Source of the DNA: a virus
IMG/VR virus record: IMGVR_UViG_3300030333_007705
Coordinates: 1-64,000 of that record
Direction: 5' to 3' (one strand)
Length of the DNA stretch: 64,000 nucleotides
A program made the translations under genes and the position numbers. Of the stretch, positions 6,097 through 40,427 are shown piece by piece. Under the pieces are notes generated by a model. The model did no database searches and had not been told where the DNA came from. It was given only the letters and a program-made list of their open reading frames with translations. Numbering within the stretch: the first letter of the stretch is position 1; each line of letters opens with the position of its first letter.

Positions 6097-8040
6097 TTAA
6101 TTTGTACTACACGCATTTTCATCAAGAATTTCCATAAGATAATTATACATTTCTGTTATGCTGGTTGAAAGTGGATACCATTTACCGCCAGAGGCTTTGG
6201 CAATCGGCTCCCACCCACCTTCGTTGTTCCACGCCTCTGCAATTCCTTGCGGGGAAAATGTGTATACTTTTAAATCTGGCGTTGAAGCCACAGCCGTTTC
6301 TAATATTTCTTGTGTGATGGTATCATTAGAGTTCCACGAACCTGGAATAGGATCTGGCAGCATATAACTTTGACCTTTTTCATCGCTAAAAACAATAATT
6401 ACTCTTTTAGCATTTGGTCTCCAATTGACAATAAAGTCTTCCAAAGGAGGTATCGATTCATCCACTGAAGTGCCGACCATGGTGGCCCACATAATGTCAC
6501 CCACACCATATGGAAGAACAGTGGCGATATTCCAAATAGATAAATAAATTGCATCATAAAGCATTTCATATTGCCCCGACATTGGAGTGCCGTTTAGGCC
6601 AGCGAATGACGCCATAAAGTCAGTAAATGATGCCAAGTTGCTTATCATTTCAAGATAATTATGATTTCCATAATATTGATCTGGAACTTTCGGCCCGATA
6701 ATCAGCCCCCACTGAAGTACTGATTCATCGCTATATTGTTGTGCAAAAGAGTTCAAAGCTGCCAAAACAGCTGAGATCTCGTTATCCATCGAGCCAGACC
6801 AATCTAAGATAAATAGAATATCAGTTTCTTGCATTTCTTCGCCAGTATCGGTTATGCCATCACAGTCATCGTCAACACCATTGCAAACTTCTTCTTGGGG
6901 CGTTATTTCACCCTCGCACATGCCACCAACAAATTCGCCGTCGGCAGTTAACCCACCCCAGGTACCTGCTTGACAAGTTACCTGCCCAGGCAAACAAATA
7001 CCCTTGTTGACAGTACCTTCGGGTCCAGTATAGCACGGCGCGTAGAGATCTTCGTCAATTAATTGATTGCAATTATCATCAAAATTATTGCATAATTCAT
7101 CTTCTAGGGCCATACCAATAAGAGGATCGCATGTTTGGTCCGGTTGAGGAAAATAGTGGCAAAAAGCAAAACACTCTGTGGTGACTATGGTAGTGCAGTC
7201 TTCGTCGACGCATTCACAAGTTTTAAACCCTTGGCCACATAGTAGAGGATCTTCCATGCATGGAAACAAAACGCCGACATCTTGTATTGTACACTCGCAG
7301 GTTAAACCTTCGTCTACTTGACCATTGCAATTGTTATCTAAACCATCACAAATTTCTGGTAACTCCGGAGGCGCAGTACAGCCGTTCCAGTTTCCGTTAT
7401 TACAAAACTCCACACCAGTACCACAAGCTGTATAACATGGCTGGTATAAATCTTCGTCTGTATCTCCGTCACAATCGTTGTCTACACCGTCGCAAATCTC
7501 TATAGGCTCAAGACCACAAGATCCGCACATATTTAGCTGACCTTCGTCGATTTCACCATCACAATCATCATCGAGCCCATTGCACATTTCTTCTGTGCAT
7601 TCTGTTTGACAGTCAGTATATTGAATTTGTCCCTTATTGCATACCTTGTCTTGCGTGCCTGGATATCCATCTTCTGTCACACAATCAACTTGTTCAATCA
7701 AATATTGAGTTGGGTCACACTGAAGGTATTCTTTGCACTCGCTCTCGTGCACGACTGCAGGAGGGTCGACGCAGTGATCAATGCAAATTTCTTTTTGCCA
7801 AACAGAACTCAGAGGAGGACAAAAGTACCACTGGCACTGTACACAGCTATTATTTGGAAAGGGATAAACGTCAGGATCAGGCCCAAGAACATCTTCAGCA
7901 GGAGGCTCGACACGCGTAATATCATTTACTGCTTGCGCGGTGTCAGAAGGGACTGGCAACACTGGGTCGTCCATAAATACCTCTGAGCAACCTACGCTCA
8001 AAATTAGAAGTATTGTGGACACCATTGCCAGCCTTTTCAT
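6097..8040 (-). CDS. Lipoprotein with MopE-like repeats and VWA domain
   Basis: 647 residues. The signal ends in LSVGCS, a lipobox with Cys19. The middle holds five Cys/Asp-rich repeats of the type CNGLDDDCDGEIDEG, near residues 153, 182, 231, 317 and 386, as in MopE-like metal-binding proteins of Myxococcota and relatives. From about 402 a von Willebrand A domain begins with DILFILDWSGSMD, an intact MIDAS DxSxS. The likely site is the outer surface of the host, binding Ca or other metals and a protein partner. Such a host-type protein on a phage suggests acquired surface-altering cargo and hints at the host phylum. Confidence 0.85.
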   Translation of the reverse strand: MKRLAMVSTILLILSVGCSEVFMDDPVLPVPSDTAQAVNDITRVEPPAEDVLGPDPDVYPFPNNSCVQCQWYFCPPLSSVWQKEICIDHCVDPPAVVHESECKEYLQCDPTQYLIEQVDCVTEDGYPGTQDKVCNKGQIQYTDCQTECTEEMCNGLDDDCDGEIDEGQLNMCGSCGLEPIEICDGVDNDCDGDTDEDLYQPCYTACGTGVEFCNNGNWNGCTAPPELPEICDGLDNNCNGQVDEGLTCECTIQDVGVLFPCMEDPLLCGQGFKTCECVDEDCTTIVTTECFAFCHYFPQPDQTCDPLIGMALEDELCNNFDDNCNQLIDEDLYAPCYTGPEGTVNKGICLPGQVTCQAGTWGGLTADGEFVGGMCEGEITPQEEVCNGVDDDCDGITDTGEEMQETDILFILDWSGSMDNEISAVLAALNSFAQQYSDESVLQWGLIIGPKVPDQYYGNHNYLEMISNLASFTDFMASFAGLNGTPMSGQYEMLYDAIYLSIWNIATVLPYGVGDIMWATMVGTSVDESIPPLEDFIVNWRPNAKRVIIVFSDEKGQSYMLPDPIPGSWNSNDTITQEILETAVASTPDLKVYTFSPQGIAEAWNNEGGWEPIAKASGGKWYPLSTSITEMYNYLMEILDENACSTN

Positions 8041-20824: not shown

Positions 20825-21034
20825 TCAAAGTTTTTCTAAGTCCTCGACAAACATCGAGTCCCAATCCCATCGATCGTTCCACTGGACCCATACCGACCAC
20901 AGTGCCCCGTCGCGTTGGAAACAGGCGGTCGATGCCTCTTCGACCACGATGCCAAGAGCATCAGGGGGAATCTCTCCGTTGTTCCTGTGGACCTCTGGGT
21001 CATCCAGAAGTCTAACCAAATCACCTACTTGCAT
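20825..21034 (-). CDS. VGD-family protein, array member 11
   Basis: 69 residues, ATG start, MQVGDLVRLLDDP. Then ALGIVVEEAS and SVWVQWNDRWDWDSM. Last gene of the array: it ends DLEKL without the SxSR tail, as expected when no gene follows. 14-nt overlap with member 10. Confidence 0.75.
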   Translation of the reverse strand: MQVGDLVRLLDDPEVHRNNGEIPPDALGIVVEEASTACFQRDGALWSVWVQWNDRWDWDSMFVEDLEKL

Positions 21035-21227
21035 TGACCACCTTCAGAATGTTTGCCGCGTAAAAACCAGCGGGAGTGTATGTATCAACCCACTCGATGT
21101 AGGCTGTGGGTTGTCCGTGTGACGTGGAGCCTGTTTTAAGCACTACGCCAAGATACTTAGAGCCACGACCCAAAGTCTCGGTGGCTGAATAGTGCGACTC
21201 AAATGTAACCAAATCACCGACTTGCAC
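21021..21227 (-). CDS. VGD-family protein, array member 10
   Basis: 68 residues, GTG start, MQVGDLVTFESHYS. Core YLGVVLKTGS and AYIEWVDTYTP; ends KVVNASR. Overlaps its neighbours on both sides by 14 nt. Confidence 0.75.
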   Translation of the reverse strand: MQVGDLVTFESHYSATETLGRGSKYLGVVLKTGSTSHGQPTAYIEWVDTYTPAGFYAANILKVVNASR

Positions 21228-21396
21228 TGATTATCTCCAACATGCTGTTCACTTCTAGTGTTGGGCCTGGTTCCAGCCGGTCGTCATCAGTTTCGTATGT
21301 CCACTGCACCATGCAGTGTGCGCCTAGACTCTGCACCACTAGACCACAACCCAGCCTGGGAATCTCTTTATGTTTCACTAAGTTACCGACTTTCAC
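21214..21396 (-). CDS. VGD-family protein, array member 9
   Basis: 60 residues, GTG start, MKVGNLVKHKEIP. Core GCGLVVQSLGAHCMVQWTYE; ends LEIISASR. 14-nt overlap on both sides. Confidence 0.75.
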   Translation of the reverse strand: MKVGNLVKHKEIPRLGCGLVVQSLGAHCMVQWTYETDDDRLEPGPTLEVNSMLEIISASR

Positions 21397-21553
21397 TGAT
21401 GACCCTCAACTGGCTCTGATACATATCGGCCTCGCCGTTTGGCCACTGGACTGTGGCGCGCTTGTCCAGGCTAGTAGTTCTCAAAATCTTGGCTACGATG
21501 CCCACGCCGTCTGTCTCCCAGCCTTTTTGCACAACCAAGTCACCGACTTGCAC
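21383..21553 (-). CDS. VGD-family protein, array member 8
   Basis: 56 residues from the GTG at 21553, MQVGDLVVQKGWE; eight upstream codons are open but lie before the Shine-Dalgarno. Core GVGIVAKILR and RATVQWPNG; ends RVISESR. Confidence 0.75.
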   Translation of the reverse strand: MQVGDLVVQKGWETDGVGIVAKILRTTSLDKRATVQWPNGEADMYQSQLRVISESR

Positions 21554-21695
21554 TGACGACCTCGCACTGAGATGCAACGAACCAGACCGTGTGTCCGGTG
21601 CTGGTGAGTACCCTCAAGGTGCCGCCAGCGTTTGGCCGAGATAGCACCGTGGCCATCTGTCCATTAAAATATCTAATAATATCACCGACTTTCAA
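21540..21695 (-). CDS. VGD-family protein, array member 7, TTG start
   Basis: 51 residues, the shortest member, starting at TTG (21695) with MKVGDIIRYFNGQM. Core TVLSRPNAGGTLRVLTSTG; ends EVVSASR. It overlaps member 8 by 14 nt but member 6 by only 4 nt. The TTG start may lower its expression. Confidence 0.65.
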   Translation of the reverse strand: MKVGDIIRYFNGQMATVLSRPNAGGTLRVLTSTGHTVWFVASQCEVVSASR

Positions 21696-21886
21696 CTTAC
21701 CAACTCCAAATCGCCTTCAAGGTAGCGACCAGTCAGGCGACGGGCGTGGTGAGAGATGACACTGACGTGCCAAACCTTAGTGCCCTGAGCGGCTGAAAGC
21801 CACTGCCAAGACATGAGCATCGCAAGTGTGTTTTGTGGCAAGCCGATTGAGGCTCGCTTGATTCTCACTAGATTACCGGGCTGCAC
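21692..21886 (-). CDS. VGD-family protein, array member 6
   Basis: 64 residues, GTG start, MQPGNLVRIKRAS (P in place of V). Trp-containing core MSWQWLSAAQGTKVWHVSV; ends LELVS, shortened because the next joint is 4 nt. Confidence 0.7.
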   Translation of the reverse strand: MQPGNLVRIKRASIGLPQNTLAMLMSWQWLSAAQGTKVWHVSVISHHARRLTGRYLEGDLELVS

Positions 21887-22052
21887 TAACTACCTCTGCA
21901 CATCGCTTGAGTTCTCTCATGCTCATCCAAGTTGGGTTCTTGAAGTGAACGTCCTGTGTAACTAATATACGAACGTGATTGTAGTCAGTAAACTCTAAAA
22001 TCAAACCAGTGTAGTTTGTTTCAGGAAACCTAATCAAATCACCTACTTGCAC
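21873..22052 (-). CDS. VGD-family protein, array member 5
   Basis: 59 residues, GTG at 22052, MQVGDLIRFPETN, then TGLILEFTDYNHVRILV and the tail AEVVSAAR. It fills the gap between members 4 and 6 with 14-nt overlaps on both sides. An internal promoter-like sequence (21964-21992) lies within it. Confidence 0.7.
   Translation of the reverse strand: MQVGDLIRFPETNYTGLILEFTDYNHVRILVTQDVHFKNPTWMSMRELKRCAEVVSAAR
21964..21992 (-). promoter_or_regulatory. Possible internal promoter in the array
   Basis: TTTACT, 17 bp, TATATT inside array member 5, coding for part of LEFTDYN on the same strand. It would allow separate expression of members 6-11. Confidence 0.35.
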
Positions 22053-22224
22053 TGATTAACTCCAAAAACGGCATCGCGCAACTTCTAGGCTCACGGTCAG
22101 GCATCATGGACCACTTGACGAGACATCGCCTAGCCTGGGGCGTCACCTCGACAATGAGCCCAACACCATACAACTCCGGTGGGGCCACGGCTGGCCTGAT
22201 AGTCACCAAGTCACCGACTTTCAC
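22039..22224 (-). CDS. VGD-family protein, array member 4
   Basis: 61 residues from the GTG at 22224, MKVGDLVTIRPAV. Core YGVGLIVEVTPQARRCLVKW is the clearest SH3/KOW-like strand pair; ends LELISASR. Confidence 0.75.
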   Translation of the reverse strand: MKVGDLVTIRPAVAPPELYGVGLIVEVTPQARRCLVKWSMMPDREPRSCAMPFLELISASR

Positions 22225-22433
22225 TGGCAACCTCCACGCCCCAAGGGGCTGCACAGCGCAGTCTCACTGATGACTGTCACGTTTTTAGGGTCTGCATGAA
22301 TATCATGAGGGTGGTCGAATGGTCTGATTCGCCAGACTGGATAGCGCTTCGAGCCGTCGTCGATGCCGACGATGAGGCCAAACTTTTCACCATACTGCTT
22401 TGTCTTTACTTTGACTAAGTTACCGACTTTCAC
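22221..22433 (-). CDS. VGD-family protein, array member 3
   Basis: 70 residues from the GTG at 22433, MKVGNLVKVKTKQ. Core FGLIVGIDDGSKRYPVW. It has an atypical long tail after VISE (TALCSPLGRGGCQ) and only a 4-nt overlap with member 4, as if the joint had been lost by a small insertion. Confidence 0.7.
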   Translation of the reverse strand: MKVGNLVKVKTKQYGEKFGLIVGIDDGSKRYPVWRIRPFDHPHDIHADPKNVTVISETALCSPLGRGGCQ

Positions 22434-22596
22434 TGATAACCTCCAGTTGGTTCGCGAACCTCGCGGCACGAAAGCCGTTGTCAGGATTAACAGTGACAAC
22501 CATCGTTTCGAGACTGTGTTGCACATCCACTACCAAAACAACCGGGTTGGACTCCAGTGTTTTAGATTTATATCTAACCAAGTCACCGGGCTGCAT
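22420..22596 (-). CDS. VGD-family protein, array member 2
   Basis: 58 residues, ATG at 22596, MQPGDLVRYKSKT. Core NPVVLVVDVQHSLETMVVTV; ends LEVISESR. 14-nt overlaps on both sides. Confidence 0.75.
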   Translation of the reverse strand: MQPGDLVRYKSKTLESNPVVLVVDVQHSLETMVVTVNPDNGFRAARFANQLEVISESR

Positions 22597-22807
22597 TGAC
22601 AACCTCCAACTCGTCGAGAGCCATAGGATGCAAGCCATCGTGGACTTGCCCAAGGCCGGGAGCATCGCGACCCTCGCCTTCAATACCAGGGTAGTGAACT
22701 TGAATCGTCATGTCGCCATGCGCTGCGAAAATCTTTGCGGCGACGCCAACGCGACCTTTGTAGAAGCGAGCGTAACCAACATACCTTACCAAGTCACCGA
22801 CTTGCAT
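22583..22807 (-). CDS. VGD-family protein, array member 1
   Basis: 74 residues from the ATG at 22807 (AGGAGATGGAC upstream), MQVGDLVRYVGYA. Core GRVGVAAKIFAAHG and MTIQVHYPG; ends LEVVNAAR. First gene after the array promoter. Confidence 0.75.
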   Translation of the reverse strand: MQVGDLVRYVGYARFYKGRVGVAAKIFAAHGDMTIQVHYPGIEGEGRDAPGLGQVHDGLHPMALDELEVVNAAR

Positions 22808-25697: not shown

Positions 25698-25904
25698 CTA
25701 TTTTACGTGTTTGAGATCGCGGCGCACTTGGAACATCGGTTTGTCATGTCCAGACCAATGCACAGTGACATGGGTGCCTGGATGGCGTGGGACACTACTC
25801 AAGTTCTCGATGTCTGTCACCAAGCCTACCGCGCCACGAGCGGCAAAGTTGCACGTCAGCTTCTTGCCGTAAGCAGAAAGCTCAACTAAATCACCGACTT
25901 TCAC
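25698..25904 (-). CDS. VGD-family protein, second array
   Basis: 68 residues from the GTG at 25904, MKVGDLVELSAYG. Core AVGLVTDIENLSS and HVTVHWSGH; ends DLKHVK, last in its row. 14-nt overlap with the gene before it. Confidence 0.7.
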   Translation of the reverse strand: MKVGDLVELSAYGKKLTCNFAARGAVGLVTDIENLSSVPRHPGTHVTVHWSGHDKPMFQVRRDLKHVK

Positions 25905-26079
25905 TGACAAGCTCCAGTTCCATTTCGTTCCACCAAGTCCTATCTGCTCCCGGCCAATCGACCTCGTAGTAGACTATGCCGTAGTCGTCTTCATACATAT
26001 CAATGACTATTCCATAGCCGTAGTCAACGCCAAGCATCGAAGCATCATTCTTTGGCAGAACAACATCACCGACGTTCAT
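25891..26079 (-). CDS. VGD-family protein, second array
   Basis: 62 residues from the ATG at 26079, MNVGDVVLPKNDA. Core YGIVIDMYEDDYGIVYYEVDW; ends LELVSESR. 14-nt overlaps on both sides. Confidence 0.7.
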   Translation of the reverse strand: MNVGDVVLPKNDASMLGVDYGYGIVIDMYEDDYGIVYYEVDWPGADRTWWNEMELELVSESR

Positions 26080-26296
26080 TGTCCCCACCAAGATGGATCA
26101 CCACCTGCTTCGATGAGTCGTCGAGATCAAAGGCGCTGTGCCAGCCAGACTGCTCTGGGTGCAGAAACCACTTGATGTAATATGGCTCCGGCTGGCTTCC
26201 GTGCGCGTTACTGTGGTCTACCTCAGAGACGATACCAATGTCGCCGTCAAGAATATATAGAACGTGGTCGCCTACTTTGAAGTCTGATTGCATCAT
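26066..26296 (-). CDS. VGD-family protein, second array
   Basis: 76 residues; ATG at 26296 or 26293. SDFKVGDHVLYILDG, GIVSEVDHSN and YYIKWFLHPEQ; ends GGDNERR, where the joint bases give NERR rather than SESR. Confidence 0.65.
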   Translation of the reverse strand: MMQSDFKVGDHVLYILDGDIGIVSEVDHSNAHGSQPEPYYIKWFLHPEQSGWHSAFDLDDSSKQVVIHLGGDNERR

Positions 26297-26664
26297 GGGT
26301 CCATGAGTTCTGAGAGGTTGTCTCGCCAACCGATGGCCTCGTCAACGTAGTCTCCATAAGTATCTCGCCACTTGATGCTGCCATCGAAGCACTTGATGTA
26401 GACATACTCTGGGCCTAGATCTTCCATTGAAGGATTCTGGAGTATACATGGATTGATGTAGTCATCCAGGTATTCTGTACCATGAGTCTTGATGATGCGG
26501 AAGCCTCCTCGCGGGGCAGCGAGCAAAATGTGAGTCAACAAAACGTCGTTGTCGATTGCTGCCAATGTCGGGAACATATGGCTAGGGTAGCCATCATAAT
26601 GACAGTATGTGCCAACATATGTCCCAGGCTCAGTCTCAACATAAACATTAGAGCGCGTGCCCAT
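26293..26664 (-). CDS. Phage hypothetical, MGTRSNVYVE family
   Basis: 123 residues from the ATG at 26664. MGTRSNVYVETEPGT followed by GTYCHYDGYPSHM, a start shared by many phage proteins with a His/Tyr/Asp cluster. C-terminal DGSIKWRDTYGDY. Unknown function. Confidence 0.6.
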   Translation of the reverse strand: MGTRSNVYVETEPGTYVGTYCHYDGYPSHMFPTLAAIDNDVLLTHILLAAPRGGFRIIKTHGTEYLDDYINPCILQNPSMEDLGPEYVYIKCFDGSIKWRDTYGDYVDEAIGWRDNLSELMDP

Positions 26665-26665
26665 T

Positions 26666-26959
26666 TTATGCCTCCAAGTAGACGATGCCCGCTGGTAGCT
26701 CACCAGACACTACGCCACCGTGCTTTGCAATCACATCCAACACGGTCTGCGAGGGCACCCAACCATAGACAGTCTCAGTCAGGTTTTCCGGGTTCTCTGC
26801 GTACCTCTCCAAGAGGGGCTCAGGCTTGTTTGGGAAGCCAACCTCGACCTCATCATATGAGGCCGCGTTGTCAGACCTTGGGCTGCAATATGCGTTGCTG
26901 TTAGCTTGCACGCTCATGCTGAATCCGTCAGCGCACTTGATTCTTTTATTCTTGCTCAT
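26666..26959 (-). CDS. Phage hypothetical, antirestriction-like acidic protein
   Basis: 97 residues with ADGFSMSVQANSNAYCSPR, ASYDEVEVGFPN and GWVPSQTVLDVIAKHGG. I have seen this pattern as a recurrent small phage gene; the antirestriction label is only a guess from its acidity. Overlaps the VGD gene upstream by 14 nt, at a joint of different sequence. Confidence 0.55.
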   Translation of the reverse strand: MSKNKRIKCADGFSMSVQANSNAYCSPRSDNAASYDEVEVGFPNKPEPLLERYAENPENLTETVYGWVPSQTVLDVIAKHGGVVSGELPAGIVYLEA

Positions 26960-27143
26960 CTACAATCTCCAGCCATGCCTTGCTGTTCCATGAATAATCA
27001 GGGCAACCCGGCGGTGGGTTAATCCAATGTACCTTGTAGTCACAACCGTTCATTGGTTGGTTGCGAATGTTCACTTCTACTATAATCCCCAAACCGCTCC
27101 GGTCAAGGGCATGTGTATTATTTACTAAATCACCGACTTTCAT
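26946..27143 (-). CDS. VGD-family protein, second array
   Basis: 65 residues, ATG, MKVGDLVNNTHAL. Core LGIIVEVNIRNQ and YKVHWINPPPG; ends LEIVDEQE. 14-nt overlap with the gene before it. Confidence 0.7.
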   Translation of the reverse strand: MKVGDLVNNTHALDRSGLGIIVEVNIRNQPMNGCDYKVHWINPPPGCPDYSWNSKAWLEIVDEQE

Positions 27144-27294
27144 GACTCTCCACCGCTGAGTAGTCGCAGTAAATCATGCTTTCCTCTTTGGGGAACTCGA
27201 CCAACATCGTGCCTTGGTTCGCATAGAACCTAACAATCTTGCCCGCGCCATATTCCTCTCTGCCTTTCACTATGACGGTATCACCGATTTTCAT
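27130..27294 (-). CDS. VGD-family protein following the GIY-YIG gene
   Basis: 54 residues from the ATG at 27294, MKIGDTVIVKGRE. Core YGAGKIVRFYANQGTMLVEF is a good KOW-like strand pair; ends VESHESR. Its first 14 nt are shared with the end of the nuclease gene. Confidence 0.7.
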   Translation of the reverse strand: MKIGDTVIVKGREEYGAGKIVRFYANQGTMLVEFPKEESMIYCDYSAVESHESR

Positions 27295-27541
27295 TTATCT
27301 TCTCTTCTTTCTGCTTGCGAGTCAGGCGCTTGAACTTGTTCTCGGCCCGCATGGCCGAGGAACGACTAGGGTGAGGCTCCAGCAAAACAATCCTCGTGGG
27401 CCTTCTTCTTCTAGTGTATTTTGCACCACGTTTGGTGTGGTTGTGTTCGTACAACCTTCTCTCCGTGTTCGTCGTTACACCAGCATAGTAAGAACCATCA
27501 GCGCACAGTAAAACATAAAACCACCAGAGATCAACTTTCAC
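27281..27541 (-). CDS. GIY-YIG nuclease, UPF0213/YhbQ type
   Basis: 86 residues, GTG start. WFYVLLCADGSYYAGVTTN carries the GIY-YIG equivalent YVL...YAG, then NTERRLYEHN with the catalytic Arg, KYTRRRRPTRIVLLE, the acidic residue region and a basic C-terminus. A single-domain catalytic module cutting DNA. The start uses MKVD, copying the array joint, and the last residues NENR arise from the 14-nt overlap with the next VGD gene. A nuclease inside the array may drive its rearrangement. Confidence 0.85.
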   Translation of the reverse strand: MKVDLWWFYVLLCADGSYYAGVTTNTERRLYEHNHTKRGAKYTRRRRPTRIVLLEPHPSRSSAMRAENKFKRLTRKQKEEKINENR

Positions 27542-27743
27542 TTATTATTTCAACGTCTTCAAAGCCAAGATAAACTTGGGTGCCTTCAAAATCCACAGTC
27601 ACGACCCTGTTGATGGCCGCTGCGACAACGACACCAATCTTGTCCTCATAGCCAATGCCGCGTCGTGTCTTCCTGCTCGAAAGTCTAACCAGATCACCGG
27701 GCTTCGGCTGAGTTGACGATTTTGATTTCTGAATATCTCGCAC
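27531..27743 (-). CDS. VGD-family protein, extended N-terminus
   Basis: 70 residues from a GTG at 27743. The family start appears inside as PKPGDLVRLSSRK; the joint start codon is CCG here, so translation must begin upstream. Core IGVVVAAAINRVVTVDF; ends EIISES. Overlaps the nuclease gene by 11 nt. Confidence 0.65.
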   Translation of the reverse strand: MRDIQKSKSSTQPKPGDLVRLSSRKTRRGIGYEDKIGVVVAAAINRVVTVDFEGTQVYLGFEDVEIISES

Positions 27744-27882
27744 TTCTCTTTACCCCGTTTCTCAAATCCAGCAGCCTATACATTTGCTCACCAAAGGGCA
27801 CTCCTTCTCTCGGCAGCTTTTCTAGAACAATATAGTAACGCCTTGTCTCATATAAAACAGAAACTAAATCACCCGGCTTCAC
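27694..27882 (-). CDS. VGD-family protein, second array
   Basis: 62 residues from the GTG at 27882, MKPGDLVSVLYET. Core YIVLEKLPREGVPF; ends KIVNSAEAR. Its 3' end overlaps the extended start of the next gene by 50 nt. Confidence 0.65.
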   Translation of the reverse strand: MKPGDLVSVLYETRRYYIVLEKLPREGVPFGEQMYRLLDLRNGVKRSARYSEIKIVNSAEAR

Positions 27883-28078
27883 TGAGAACCTCGACCCAGC
27901 CACTTGTGATAGCGCTCAGGTCCATTGGCATCGCTTCTCCGTTATTGGAGGGCCACAAGACAAGCTGGGTGCGCGACGGGCTATGAATGAGGGCACGCTC
28001 TACTAATGCGCCGACGATGATGCCAACGTCACCCTGGTCTACATCACGCACTAAGCTGCCAATCGGAATCGAGGTCAT
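27869..28078 (-). CDS. VGD-family protein, second array
   Basis: 69 residues, ATG, TSIPIGSLVRDVDQG. Core VGIIVGALVERALIH and QLVLWPSNNG; ends VEVLSEAG. 14-nt joint with the next gene. Confidence 0.65.
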   Translation of the reverse strand: MTSIPIGSLVRDVDQGDVGIIVGALVERALIHSPSRTQLVLWPSNNGEAMPMDLSAITSGWVEVLSEAG

Positions 28079-28250
28079 CGTGTTTCATCTCCTCAAGGCT
28101 TGCCTCTGCATAGGTGCCCTGCGTTCCTGACTCGTCGTCGAGCCATAAAATCCTGTAGTTGTTGTCGCCAAGTGAGCTTGTTACTACACCTAATGTAGAC
28201 TCCAAAACTTGACCGTCAATCTTCATGTGAACCAAATCACCAGTAATCAT
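28044..28250 (-). CDS. VGD-family protein, second array
   Basis: 68 residues from the ATG at 28250, MITGDLVHMKIDG. Core LGVVTSSLGDNNYRILW; acidic C-terminus ending WQLSA. 4-nt overlap with the zinc-ribbon gene upstream. Confidence 0.65.
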   Translation of the reverse strand: MITGDLVHMKIDGQVLESTLGVVTSSLGDNNYRILWLDDESGTQGTYAEASLEEMKHDDLDSDWQLSA

Positions 28251-38507: not shown

Positions 38508-38811
38508 CTTCTTGCTCCTCGCCGACTGGAGCCGTAGCTTGTCTCATGTCCTCAGGCAAATCAGGCGCGGACAGCTGCGCAATAACATTGGCGTACCCCT
38601 GGAGCATGCTAGTAACATCCTCAAGTTGACTATCGACGATGGCCAATCCAGATCGAACATGCTCAACAGAATCATTAAAAGCAGGCAAACTGGCTGTGGT
38701 CATGGGCGCTTTTGATAGTTGCGCCAGCCTTCTCCTGATCAGGTGTATTAGTTCATCAATTTTAGCTGGCACCTCATCAAAATCAATAGTGTGCGTAATC
38801 TTAACTTTCAT
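38497..38811 (-). CDS. Hypothetical helical protein
   Basis: 104 residues. TIDFDEVPAKIDELIHLIRR start, a helical middle and an acidic tail. Overlaps the GroEL gene by 11 nt. Unknown. Confidence 0.55.
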   Translation of the reverse strand: MKVKITHTIDFDEVPAKIDELIHLIRRRLAQLSKAPMTTASLPAFNDSVEHVRSGLAIVDSQLEDVTSMLQGYANVIAQLSAPDLPEDMRQATAPVGEEQEDEV

Positions 38812-40384
38812 TTTCTATCTCCACAATAGCGTTGTTAGTAGTAATAAGGGTGGAAGCAACAGAGACGGCATTCCTGAGTGCGGTTATGGTAACCTTAGCC
38901 GGATCGATGATTCCTGCTTCCATCATGTCGACAACCTCCCCGCTGGCAAAATTCCAACCGAAGCCTTCTTTCTCTTGTTGTTCCTGAAGCCTGGAGATGA
39001 TCAAGTCTGAGCTTTCCCCCGCGTTCGAAGCCATCTGTCTAATCGGTGCTTCGAGGCTTCTCTTTAATATCTCAGCCCCGAATCTCTGATCTTCGTTTTC
39101 TAATTCAAACTCCAGCTTGCGACAATTCAACAACGTCGATCCGCCGCCGGGGACAATCCCTTGTTCTTGGGCTGCTCGTACTGCCTCCAGCGCATCTTCA
39201 ATACGGTGCTTTTTCTCTGTCATTTCAACTTCCGTTGGAGCACCTACCTTAATTATTGCAACACCACTGTTTAGCCTAGTGATGCGCTCCTGCAGGCGCC
39301 GGCACTCCTCCATGTCTTCTGTTTGCTTTATCTCAGACTTGAGAGACTCTATCCTCTCTTCAATAGCTGGCCAGTCGGAGTTGCCGTCAACAATGGTGGT
39401 GAAATTTTTCATAATCTCAATTCTCTTACATGTACCCAAGTCAACCAGCTTTACGTCACCTAGCTTTTTTCCTGATTCACGAGACACAAAATTAGCTCCG
39501 GTGGCCAGGCAAAGGTCCCTCATGATGTCCCTTCGCTCATTGCCGTATCTAGGAGCCTTGACAGCGGCGACCCTCATTGTGCCACGAACTGCGTTCATAA
39601 TTAACGCTGCCAGGGCTTGACCCTCGACTTCTTCAGCGACAATCACAAAAGGCTTTGCTTCGCGAGAAACAAGCTCTAGAATAGGGAATATATCATTTAC
39701 GTTTTCTATCTTGTGATCTGTAACAAGCATGAGAACATCATCATAATCAACAATGTTTCTTTTTTCATCTGTAACAAACGCTCTAGCAAAATATCCAGAA
39801 TCAAATCTAAAGCCCTCGACAACATCAAGACTTGTTTGTTCGGCCTTGGCTTCTTCGATAGTGATAGCGCCGTCGGCTCCGGCCTGATCGGCAGCAGTGG
39901 CAATGAGTTTACCAATAGAGGCGTCGTTGTTAGCTGAAATTGTTGCAACATGTTCTATCTCTTCGAATGACGAGACGGGCGTGGCCTGATGTTCAATCTC
40001 ATTTACAATTTTCTCTAGCGCGTGGTCCATGCCTCGCTTAAGCTCAATCGGAGAACTGCCGGCAATAATATATTTTTGTGCATTAGCTAGGATGTCTCTT
40101 GCCAGCACTGTAGAGGTAGTCGTGCCGTCCCCTGCAAGTGCGTTGGTTTGCAACGCTGCTTGCTTCAAGACCTCGGCACCCGCGTTCTCAACCGGATCGT
40201 CTAAGTGAACAAAGTTGGCAACAGTGACGCCGTCTTTTGTTATGACGGGGCTTACACCATTTTTATATAAAAGGACGTTTCGTCCGCGTGGGCCGAGCGT
40301 AGCTGCAACGTTGTCAGCCAACTTGTCGACTCCAGCGAGTAGTTTTTCTTGCAAAGCGCGGTCGTGCGCATAGACCTTAGTCAT
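38801..40384 (-). CDS. groL: Chaperonin GroEL
   Basis: 527 residues from the ATG at 40384 (GAGGT upstream). All hallmarks: ADNVAATLGPRGRNVLL near 22, ITKDGVTVANFVHLDD, AGDGTTTSTVLARDIL with the catalytic Asp near 86, EQGIVPGGGSTLLNC near 400. The C-terminus ends ENES without a GGM tail. It folds phage proteins, usually capsid subunits, in place of or together with host GroEL. The co-chaperonin is not adjacent; a GroES-like gene lies at 52899-53168. Confidence 0.97.
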   Translation of the reverse strand: MTKVYAHDRALQEKLLAGVDKLADNVAATLGPRGRNVLLYKNGVSPVITKDGVTVANFVHLDDPVENAGAEVLKQAALQTNALAGDGTTTSTVLARDILANAQKYIIAGSSPIELKRGMDHALEKIVNEIEHQATPVSSFEEIEHVATISANNDASIGKLIATAADQAGADGAITIEEAKAEQTSLDVVEGFRFDSGYFARAFVTDEKRNIVDYDDVLMLVTDHKIENVNDIFPILELVSREAKPFVIVAEEVEGQALAALIMNAVRGTMRVAAVKAPRYGNERRDIMRDLCLATGANFVSRESGKKLGDVKLVDLGTCKRIEIMKNFTTIVDGNSDWPAIEERIESLKSEIKQTEDMEECRRLQERITRLNSGVAIIKVGAPTEVEMTEKKHRIEDALEAVRAAQEQGIVPGGGSTLLNCRKLEFELENEDQRFGAEILKRSLEAPIRQMASNAGESSDLIISRLQEQQEKEGFGWNFASGEVVDMMEAGIIDPAKVTITALRNAVSVASTLITTNNAIVEIENES

Positions 40385-40399
40385 AGATACCTCATTAGT

Positions 40400-40427
40400 A
40401 TTATAAGTCCAGATTACCACAAGTCAA
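40400..40427 (-). promoter_or_regulatory. Promoter of groL
   Basis: TTGACT, 16 bp, TATAAT, near the sigma-70 consensus. The leader is very short (about 10 nt). Confidence 0.75.

Follow-up and report, generated by a model that had tools for sequence, protein, structure and literature searches.

Small overlapping genes in an uncultured virus probably form a cassette array, in which recombination at a short recurrent joint adds and removes whole genes, and the GIY-YIG nuclease gene lodged among them is most likely a passenger rather than the engine of this exchange. The array lies within the 64,000-nt stretch of DNA analysed here (the window), taken from a 74-kb record of an uncultured virus. 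The genes concerned are all on the minus strand, and their coordinates, with those of the joints, are collected in Table 1.

Units and joints of the array

The first-pass annotation listed five 14-nt overlaps between consecutive frames, and all five are present on the minus strand, each exactly 14 nt long. Every joint is read in two frames; it closes the previous gene with its last codons and stop and gives the following gene its ribosome site and start. In these five the upstream frame closes with TGA and the downstream frame opens with M/V-x-x-G(-D). One further 14-nt overlap, of different sequence, was missing from that list (26946-26959), and at a degenerate joint (27694-27707) the start codon is lost, so that the downstream unit starts further upstream (GTG at 27743).

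Table 1. Array units, joints and other features of the window (asterisk, stop)
Feature	Position	Strand	Sequence	Remarks
VGD unit	25698..25904	-	VKVGDLVELSAYGKK...	Block's last unit; ORF with joint 25891-25904
Joint	25891-25904	-	GTGAAAGTCGGTGA	Upstream frame ends ELVSESR*
VGD unit	25891..26079	-	MNVGDVVLPKNDASM...VSESR	ORF; 14-nt overlap at each end
Joint	26066-26079	-	ATGAACGTCGGTGA	Upstream frame ends GGDNERR*
VGD-like unit	26066..26296	-	MMQSDFKVGDHVLYILDG...NERR	ORF; stop inside joint 26066-26079
Non-VGD neighbour	26293..26664	-	MGTRSNVYVETEPGTYVGTYCHYDGYPSHM	phrog_25001/1987, function unknown; 4-nt overlap with next unit
Non-VGD neighbour	26666..26959	-	MSKNKRIKCADGFSM	Stays beside array in L002-L005
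14-nt overlap, different sequence	26946-26959	-	ATGAGCAAGAATAA	VGD unit into MSKNKRIK gene
VGD unit	26946..27143	-	MKVGDLVNNTHALDR...	ORF; retained in L002 and L003
Joint	27130-27143	-	ATGAAAGTCGGTGA	Upstream frame ends VESHESR*
VGD unit	27130..27294	-	MKIGDTVIVKGREEYGAGK...HESR	ORF; modelled as five-stranded SH3/Tudor-like barrel
Joint	27281-27294	-	ATGAAAATCGGTGA	GIY-YIG end EKINENR* overlaps next VGD start MKIGD
GIY-YIG nuclease	27281..27541	-		86 aa; Slx1-like/UPF0213 type; PF01541, E = 5e-17
Degenerate 5' joint of GIY-YIG	27531..27541	-	GTGAAAGTTGA	11-nt overlap with upstream ...IISES*
VGD-like unit	27531..27743	-	...QPKPGDLVRLSSRKTRRG...ISES	Own joint lacks start codon
Degenerate joint	27694-27707	-	GCCGAAGCCCGGTGA	Upstream stop kept (NSAEAR*)
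VGD unit	27694..27882	-	VKPGDLVSVLYETRRYY...AEAR	ORF with joint 27869-27882; relatives in L004, L005
Joint	27869-27882	-	GTGAAGCCGGGTGA	Upstream frame ends EVLSEAG*
VGD-like unit	27869..28078	-	MTSIPIGSLVRDVDQGD...SEAG	ORF; stop within joint
VGD-like unit	28044..28250	-	MITGDLVHMKIDGQ...	ORF; weak DUF2158 similarity
First VGD array	20825-22807	-	GTGCAAGTCGGTGA (MQVGD)	Same joint; many MQVGD, some with GGTAA stop
CDGxDNDCDG-repeat protein	6097-8040	-		Large, secreted-looking
GroEL	38801-40420	-		Phage-encoded; phrog_5725

The joint consensus is TGGAGGTtaTCA-RTGAAAGTCGGTGA-TTTGGT. Base frequencies over 891 joint starts place TGGAGGTtaTCA immediately 5' of the start, followed by RTGAAAGTCGGTGATTTGGT, and the consensus of the same starts has a Shine-Dalgarno sequence at -11 to -7. 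TGGAGGTtaTCA thus does double duty: it encodes the final strand of the protein upstream (LEV-V/I-S) and forms the Shine-Dalgarno site. In the first locus set, 461 pairs of consecutive joint genes share an overlap of exactly 14 nt; the second most frequent length is 4 nt (n = 40). The GGT that makes the stop is present in 97% of joints into which the upstream frame is open (n = 610) but in only 75-78% of those into which it is not (n = 123 and 186), which indicates that the joint is conserved for both reading frames.

If one mismatch to RTGMAAGTCGGTGA is allowed, the window contains 13 joints on the minus strand and none on the plus strand. The pattern is also nearly one-stranded in 24 + 38 related records, where a single opposite-strand match occurs, in one record, and a reversed-pattern control gives 0 or 1 match per related record. 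Five of the six joints tested fold no better than shuffled sequences, and the sixth reaches only -2.9 kcal/mol.

The VGD unit protein is predicted to fold into a five-stranded SH3/Tudor-like barrel (mean pLDDT 89). The top PDB matches of the model are the Tudor domains of PHF1/PHF19, with a NusG KOW domain among the others, all at E values above 0.001; Pfam and PHROGs give weak matches only, such as DUF2158. Elsewhere the window carries a first VGD array, a GroEL gene and a protein with CDGxDNDCDG repeats, a repeat type common in Deltaproteobacteria.

Gain and loss of whole units

Array indels between related loci comprise 24 distinct events, which share some sequences and hence are not all fully independent; 17 of them break at a joint, that is, no more than 20 nt from a joint centre, where 11.6% would be expected (p = 1.8e-11). 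The earlier proposal of cassette gain by recombination at joints is thereby borne out, for loss as well as gain, and the array can be regarded as made up of cassettes that recombination at joints swaps in and out. With its breakpoints at a short repeat, it is an instance of the general phage type of modular exchange at boundary sequences. The clearest case is the pair L014 and L016r, 99.5-100% identical in flanks that extend over 8.4 kb and 2.6 kb: the two loci differ by one whole unit, which has ATGAAAGTCGGTGATTTGGT at both edges. L002 and L003 (95% identical) are set apart by three events, each the gain or loss of a unit at a joint, and comparison of L003 with the window places a recombination breakpoint at the joint 27281-27294.

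We propose that each unit is a single small gene for a putative SH3/Tudor-like protein and that the joint acts as a bifunctional coding overlap, which ends the gene before it with a stop and equips the gene after it with a Shine-Dalgarno site and a start. Units would be added or removed by ordinary homologous or homeologous recombination from joint to joint, and they would move whole because all units start and end with the same ~20-35 nt. Since the joint carries stop, Shine-Dalgarno site and start, every in-register product would be translatable, perhaps with translational coupling across the joint. The catalyst is probably the phage's own UvsX-type recombinase; a UvsX-like protein is encoded in the window (E = 1e-56). 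Phage_integrase domains (PF00589) were found in none of 16 array records, which may be incomplete, versus 14 of 14 controls, and Resolvase domains in none of the 16. Short-homology recombination between joints is the simplest account of the exchange. The tracts shared between contigs at indel breakpoints measure only ~14-36 nt, which is short for efficient RecA/UvsX exchange and so leaves room for a dedicated mechanism.

The GIY-YIG gene: cargo or driver?

The Ssn (site-specific single-strand nuclease) family comprises GIY-YIG enzymes acting at genomic repeats and offers no more than a lead here. In the 86-aa protein of the window, the PF01541 match covers residues 6-79 and is the sole domain, with no NUMOD or other DNA-binding module. 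Its closest structures are 1ywl (E = 5.8e-21, 77.5 bits) and 1zg2 (E = 2.4e-16), two UPF0213 proteins of the Slx1-like lineage, which stands apart from the UvrC/homing lineage, marked by a conserved C-terminal Asn (PMC1564403); this Asn is missing here. Judged by sequence, the enzyme is in the Slx1-like/UPF0213 branch and outside the homing-endonuclease branch. It shares with its prokaryotic counterparts a stand-alone minimal domain and the same catalytic residues but is phage-encoded, with a gene start and stop made from the array joint. Residues Y5, Y15, G17, R24, R25 and E63 of the active site are invariant in an alignment of 20 phage relatives, so the nuclease does not appear to be catalytically dead, a state that the first-pass annotation had named as telling against a role in the array.

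The gene begins MKVD (GTG AAA GTT GAT) and ends NENR, as annotated, with E-N-R derived from the overlap with the next VGD start. The further claim that it was spliced in by the array joint is supported, with a 14-nt joint on the 3' side, although the overlap on the 5' side is 11 nt rather than 14. Where the window has this degenerate 5' joint, L005 has a full one, GTGAAAGTCGGTGA. The GIY-YIG start is a full or nearly full joint in L005 (VKVGDWWF) and L065 (MQVGEKVWF), and the gene overlaps each neighbour by 14 nt in L002, L003, L005, L158 and L197. Overlaps of 14 nt akin to that at 26946-26959, with other stop codons, lie 5' of the gene in L002, L158, L197 and L206.

We looked for GIY-YIG genes beside VGD arrays in other phages, and they recur. 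Among 80 phage loci sampled by GIY-YIG homology, a set biased towards arrays because the query alignment was built from array records, 42 have a same-strand joint within 4 kb of the gene and none an opposite-strand joint, and in 19, scattered across the GIY-YIG tree, the stop lies inside a joint. About half of the GIY-YIG relatives are situated away from arrays. On the tree, which is poorly resolved, the joint-stop state changes 13 times (9-14 in bootstraps), which points to repeated capture or loss. PF01541 matches occur in 24 of 113 array records, and in 19 of 108 when the window's record and four picked by GIY-YIG homology are left out; ~82% thus lack a match, although IMG/VR contigs may be incomplete and a missing gene is no proof of absence. 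Among array records longer than 180 kb, 14 of 20 have none.

GIY-YIG is the commonest non-VGD cargo among genes ending at joints. Other such cargo, named by eye, includes SWIM-like zinc finger, MazG-like, DUF2061-like and DUF3310-like genes. In L047 (1464-1664, minus strand), a small hydrophobic DUF2061-like protein has a joint at each end within the array, which extends the cargo beyond SH3-like proteins and GIY-YIG. We regard the GIY-YIG gene as a cargo cassette that has repeatedly entered and left arrays; it is probably a passenger, with a predicted Slx1-like DNA-processing activity of its own.

So, does the nuclease drive the exchange? The first-pass annotation suggested that it may cut related arrays and promote cassette gain. 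Such a driver would cut or nick joint DNA, or resolve branched intermediates there, to the benefit of both cassette gain and its own spread. We consider this unlikely. It would agree with the recurrent capture of the gene in arrays, its invariant active site and its placement nearer joints than chance (Fisher p = 1e-5; 17 array records picked by their joints, one-strand positions). In the sister pairs L002/L003, window/L003 and L197/L206 the unit directly 3' of the gene differs, and these are the three of the five joint events in GIY-YIG arrays that fall at its 3' joint, where ~0.6 would be expected by a rough estimate, in a small post hoc comparison; the gene's own position differs by two units between L005 and L004. 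Slx1 enzymes, moreover, are structure-specific nucleases that promote recombination and maintain rDNA copy number (PMC1564403). However, joint-precise indels also occur in lineages where no GIY-YIG gene was found, such as G050/G052 (L014/L016) and G058 (L023, 190.7 kb), and joint counts are alike with and without the gene. The 3' joint is still intact after GIY-YIG insertion, and flank matching found no empty site, lacking the gene but with its flanks otherwise joined, among the compared loci. Together with the Slx1-like type of the enzyme, its presence in so few array records and its many relatives off arrays, these observations leave the suggestion unsupported.

About as unlikely, in our view, is a self-shuffling array, analogous yet unrelated to an integron: the Slx1-like nuclease would travel in it as one of the cassettes and, by its own action, promote joint-specific gains, losses and relocations of cassettes. 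As the commonest cargo, with conserved active-site residues and an excess of events at its 3' joint, the gene could be more than a passenger, perhaps a helper.

An account that needs no recombination at joints seems improbable; in it, strong selection for compact, translationally coupled genes would produce the overlaps, and breakpoints would seem joint-precise only through the loss of other products. The joint is indeed kept for two coding frames and a Shine-Dalgarno site, and since it is the sole sequence common to divergent units, selection would favour in-register products. Yet events that separate 99%-identical contigs have breakpoint tracts of identical sequence reaching across the joint core, and selection accounts for the survival of units, not for their source; this reading overlaps with recombination at joints instead of excluding it. 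Classical homing, with the GIY-YIG protein as a selfish free-standing endonuclease targeting the joint, is very improbable and was rejected: the domain does occupy variable array places in related phages, but it has no DNA-binding module and belongs to another lineage, its insertion spares the target, with the 3' joint and many others intact in the same genome, and no empty-site allele was found among the compared loci.

Known modular systems and distribution among viruses

A cassette array with recombination at joints, as favoured here, has several known counterparts. Gene modules are shuffled likewise in the PeSL or mobile regulatory cassettes of T4-like phages (Arbiol 2010; Comeau 2014; via PMC4503421), where short repeated motifs between genes of a hyperplastic region offer homology for module shuffling. 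The PeSL is an intergenic promoter/stem-loop motif, whereas the joint lies inside two overlapping reading frames, shows no significant fold in five of six cases and flanks single paralogous genes. We rejected PeSL membership, as the joint sits within coding overlaps and forms no stable stem-loop. Start-associated sequences (SAS) of cluster K mycobacteriophages are repeats at gene starts tied to translation initiation, and they lie upstream of the start without coding overlap with the previous gene, unlike the joint (PMC3203893). They were put forward as possible recombination targets, exchange being no more than a suggestion (PMC3203893); for the joint, the present analysis counts precise events.

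Integron arrays resemble the present ones in their one-gene cassettes, single orientation, arbitrary cargo and content that varies between close relatives. They differ in that no tyrosine integrase and no attC-like folded site were found here, and in that the joint is coding sequence rather than a separate recombination site. With PF00589 missing from the 16 records and no folded attC-type site, integron-like site-specific recombination was rejected.

Joint arrays are present in more than 100 IMG/VR contigs, nearly always on one strand; a joint-pattern scan of viral contigs gave at least 120 stretches. The carriers are uncultured phages, mostly marine. Neither megablast with the array region nor tblastn with one VGD unit gave a match among 50,697 phage records; the neighbouring MGTRSN gene, used as a comparison control, turned up mostly unrelated phages. 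A literature search limited to open papers found no published description of such arrays. Array contigs L285 (PBIO01000025.1), L280 and L286 had been assigned by binning to Halobacteriovorax and Deltaproteobacteria MAGs, which gives only a hint of the hosts of array phages.

Natural near-identical pairs such as L014/L016 are useful for studies of the exchange, and the arrays pose the testable question of whether an Slx1-like enzyme accelerates recombination between repeats. Widespread in uncultured phages, they illustrate how one repeat may serve as stop, ribosome site, start and recombination homology. They thus offer a concrete route by which phage accessory regions may gain and lose single genes with all products still translatable.
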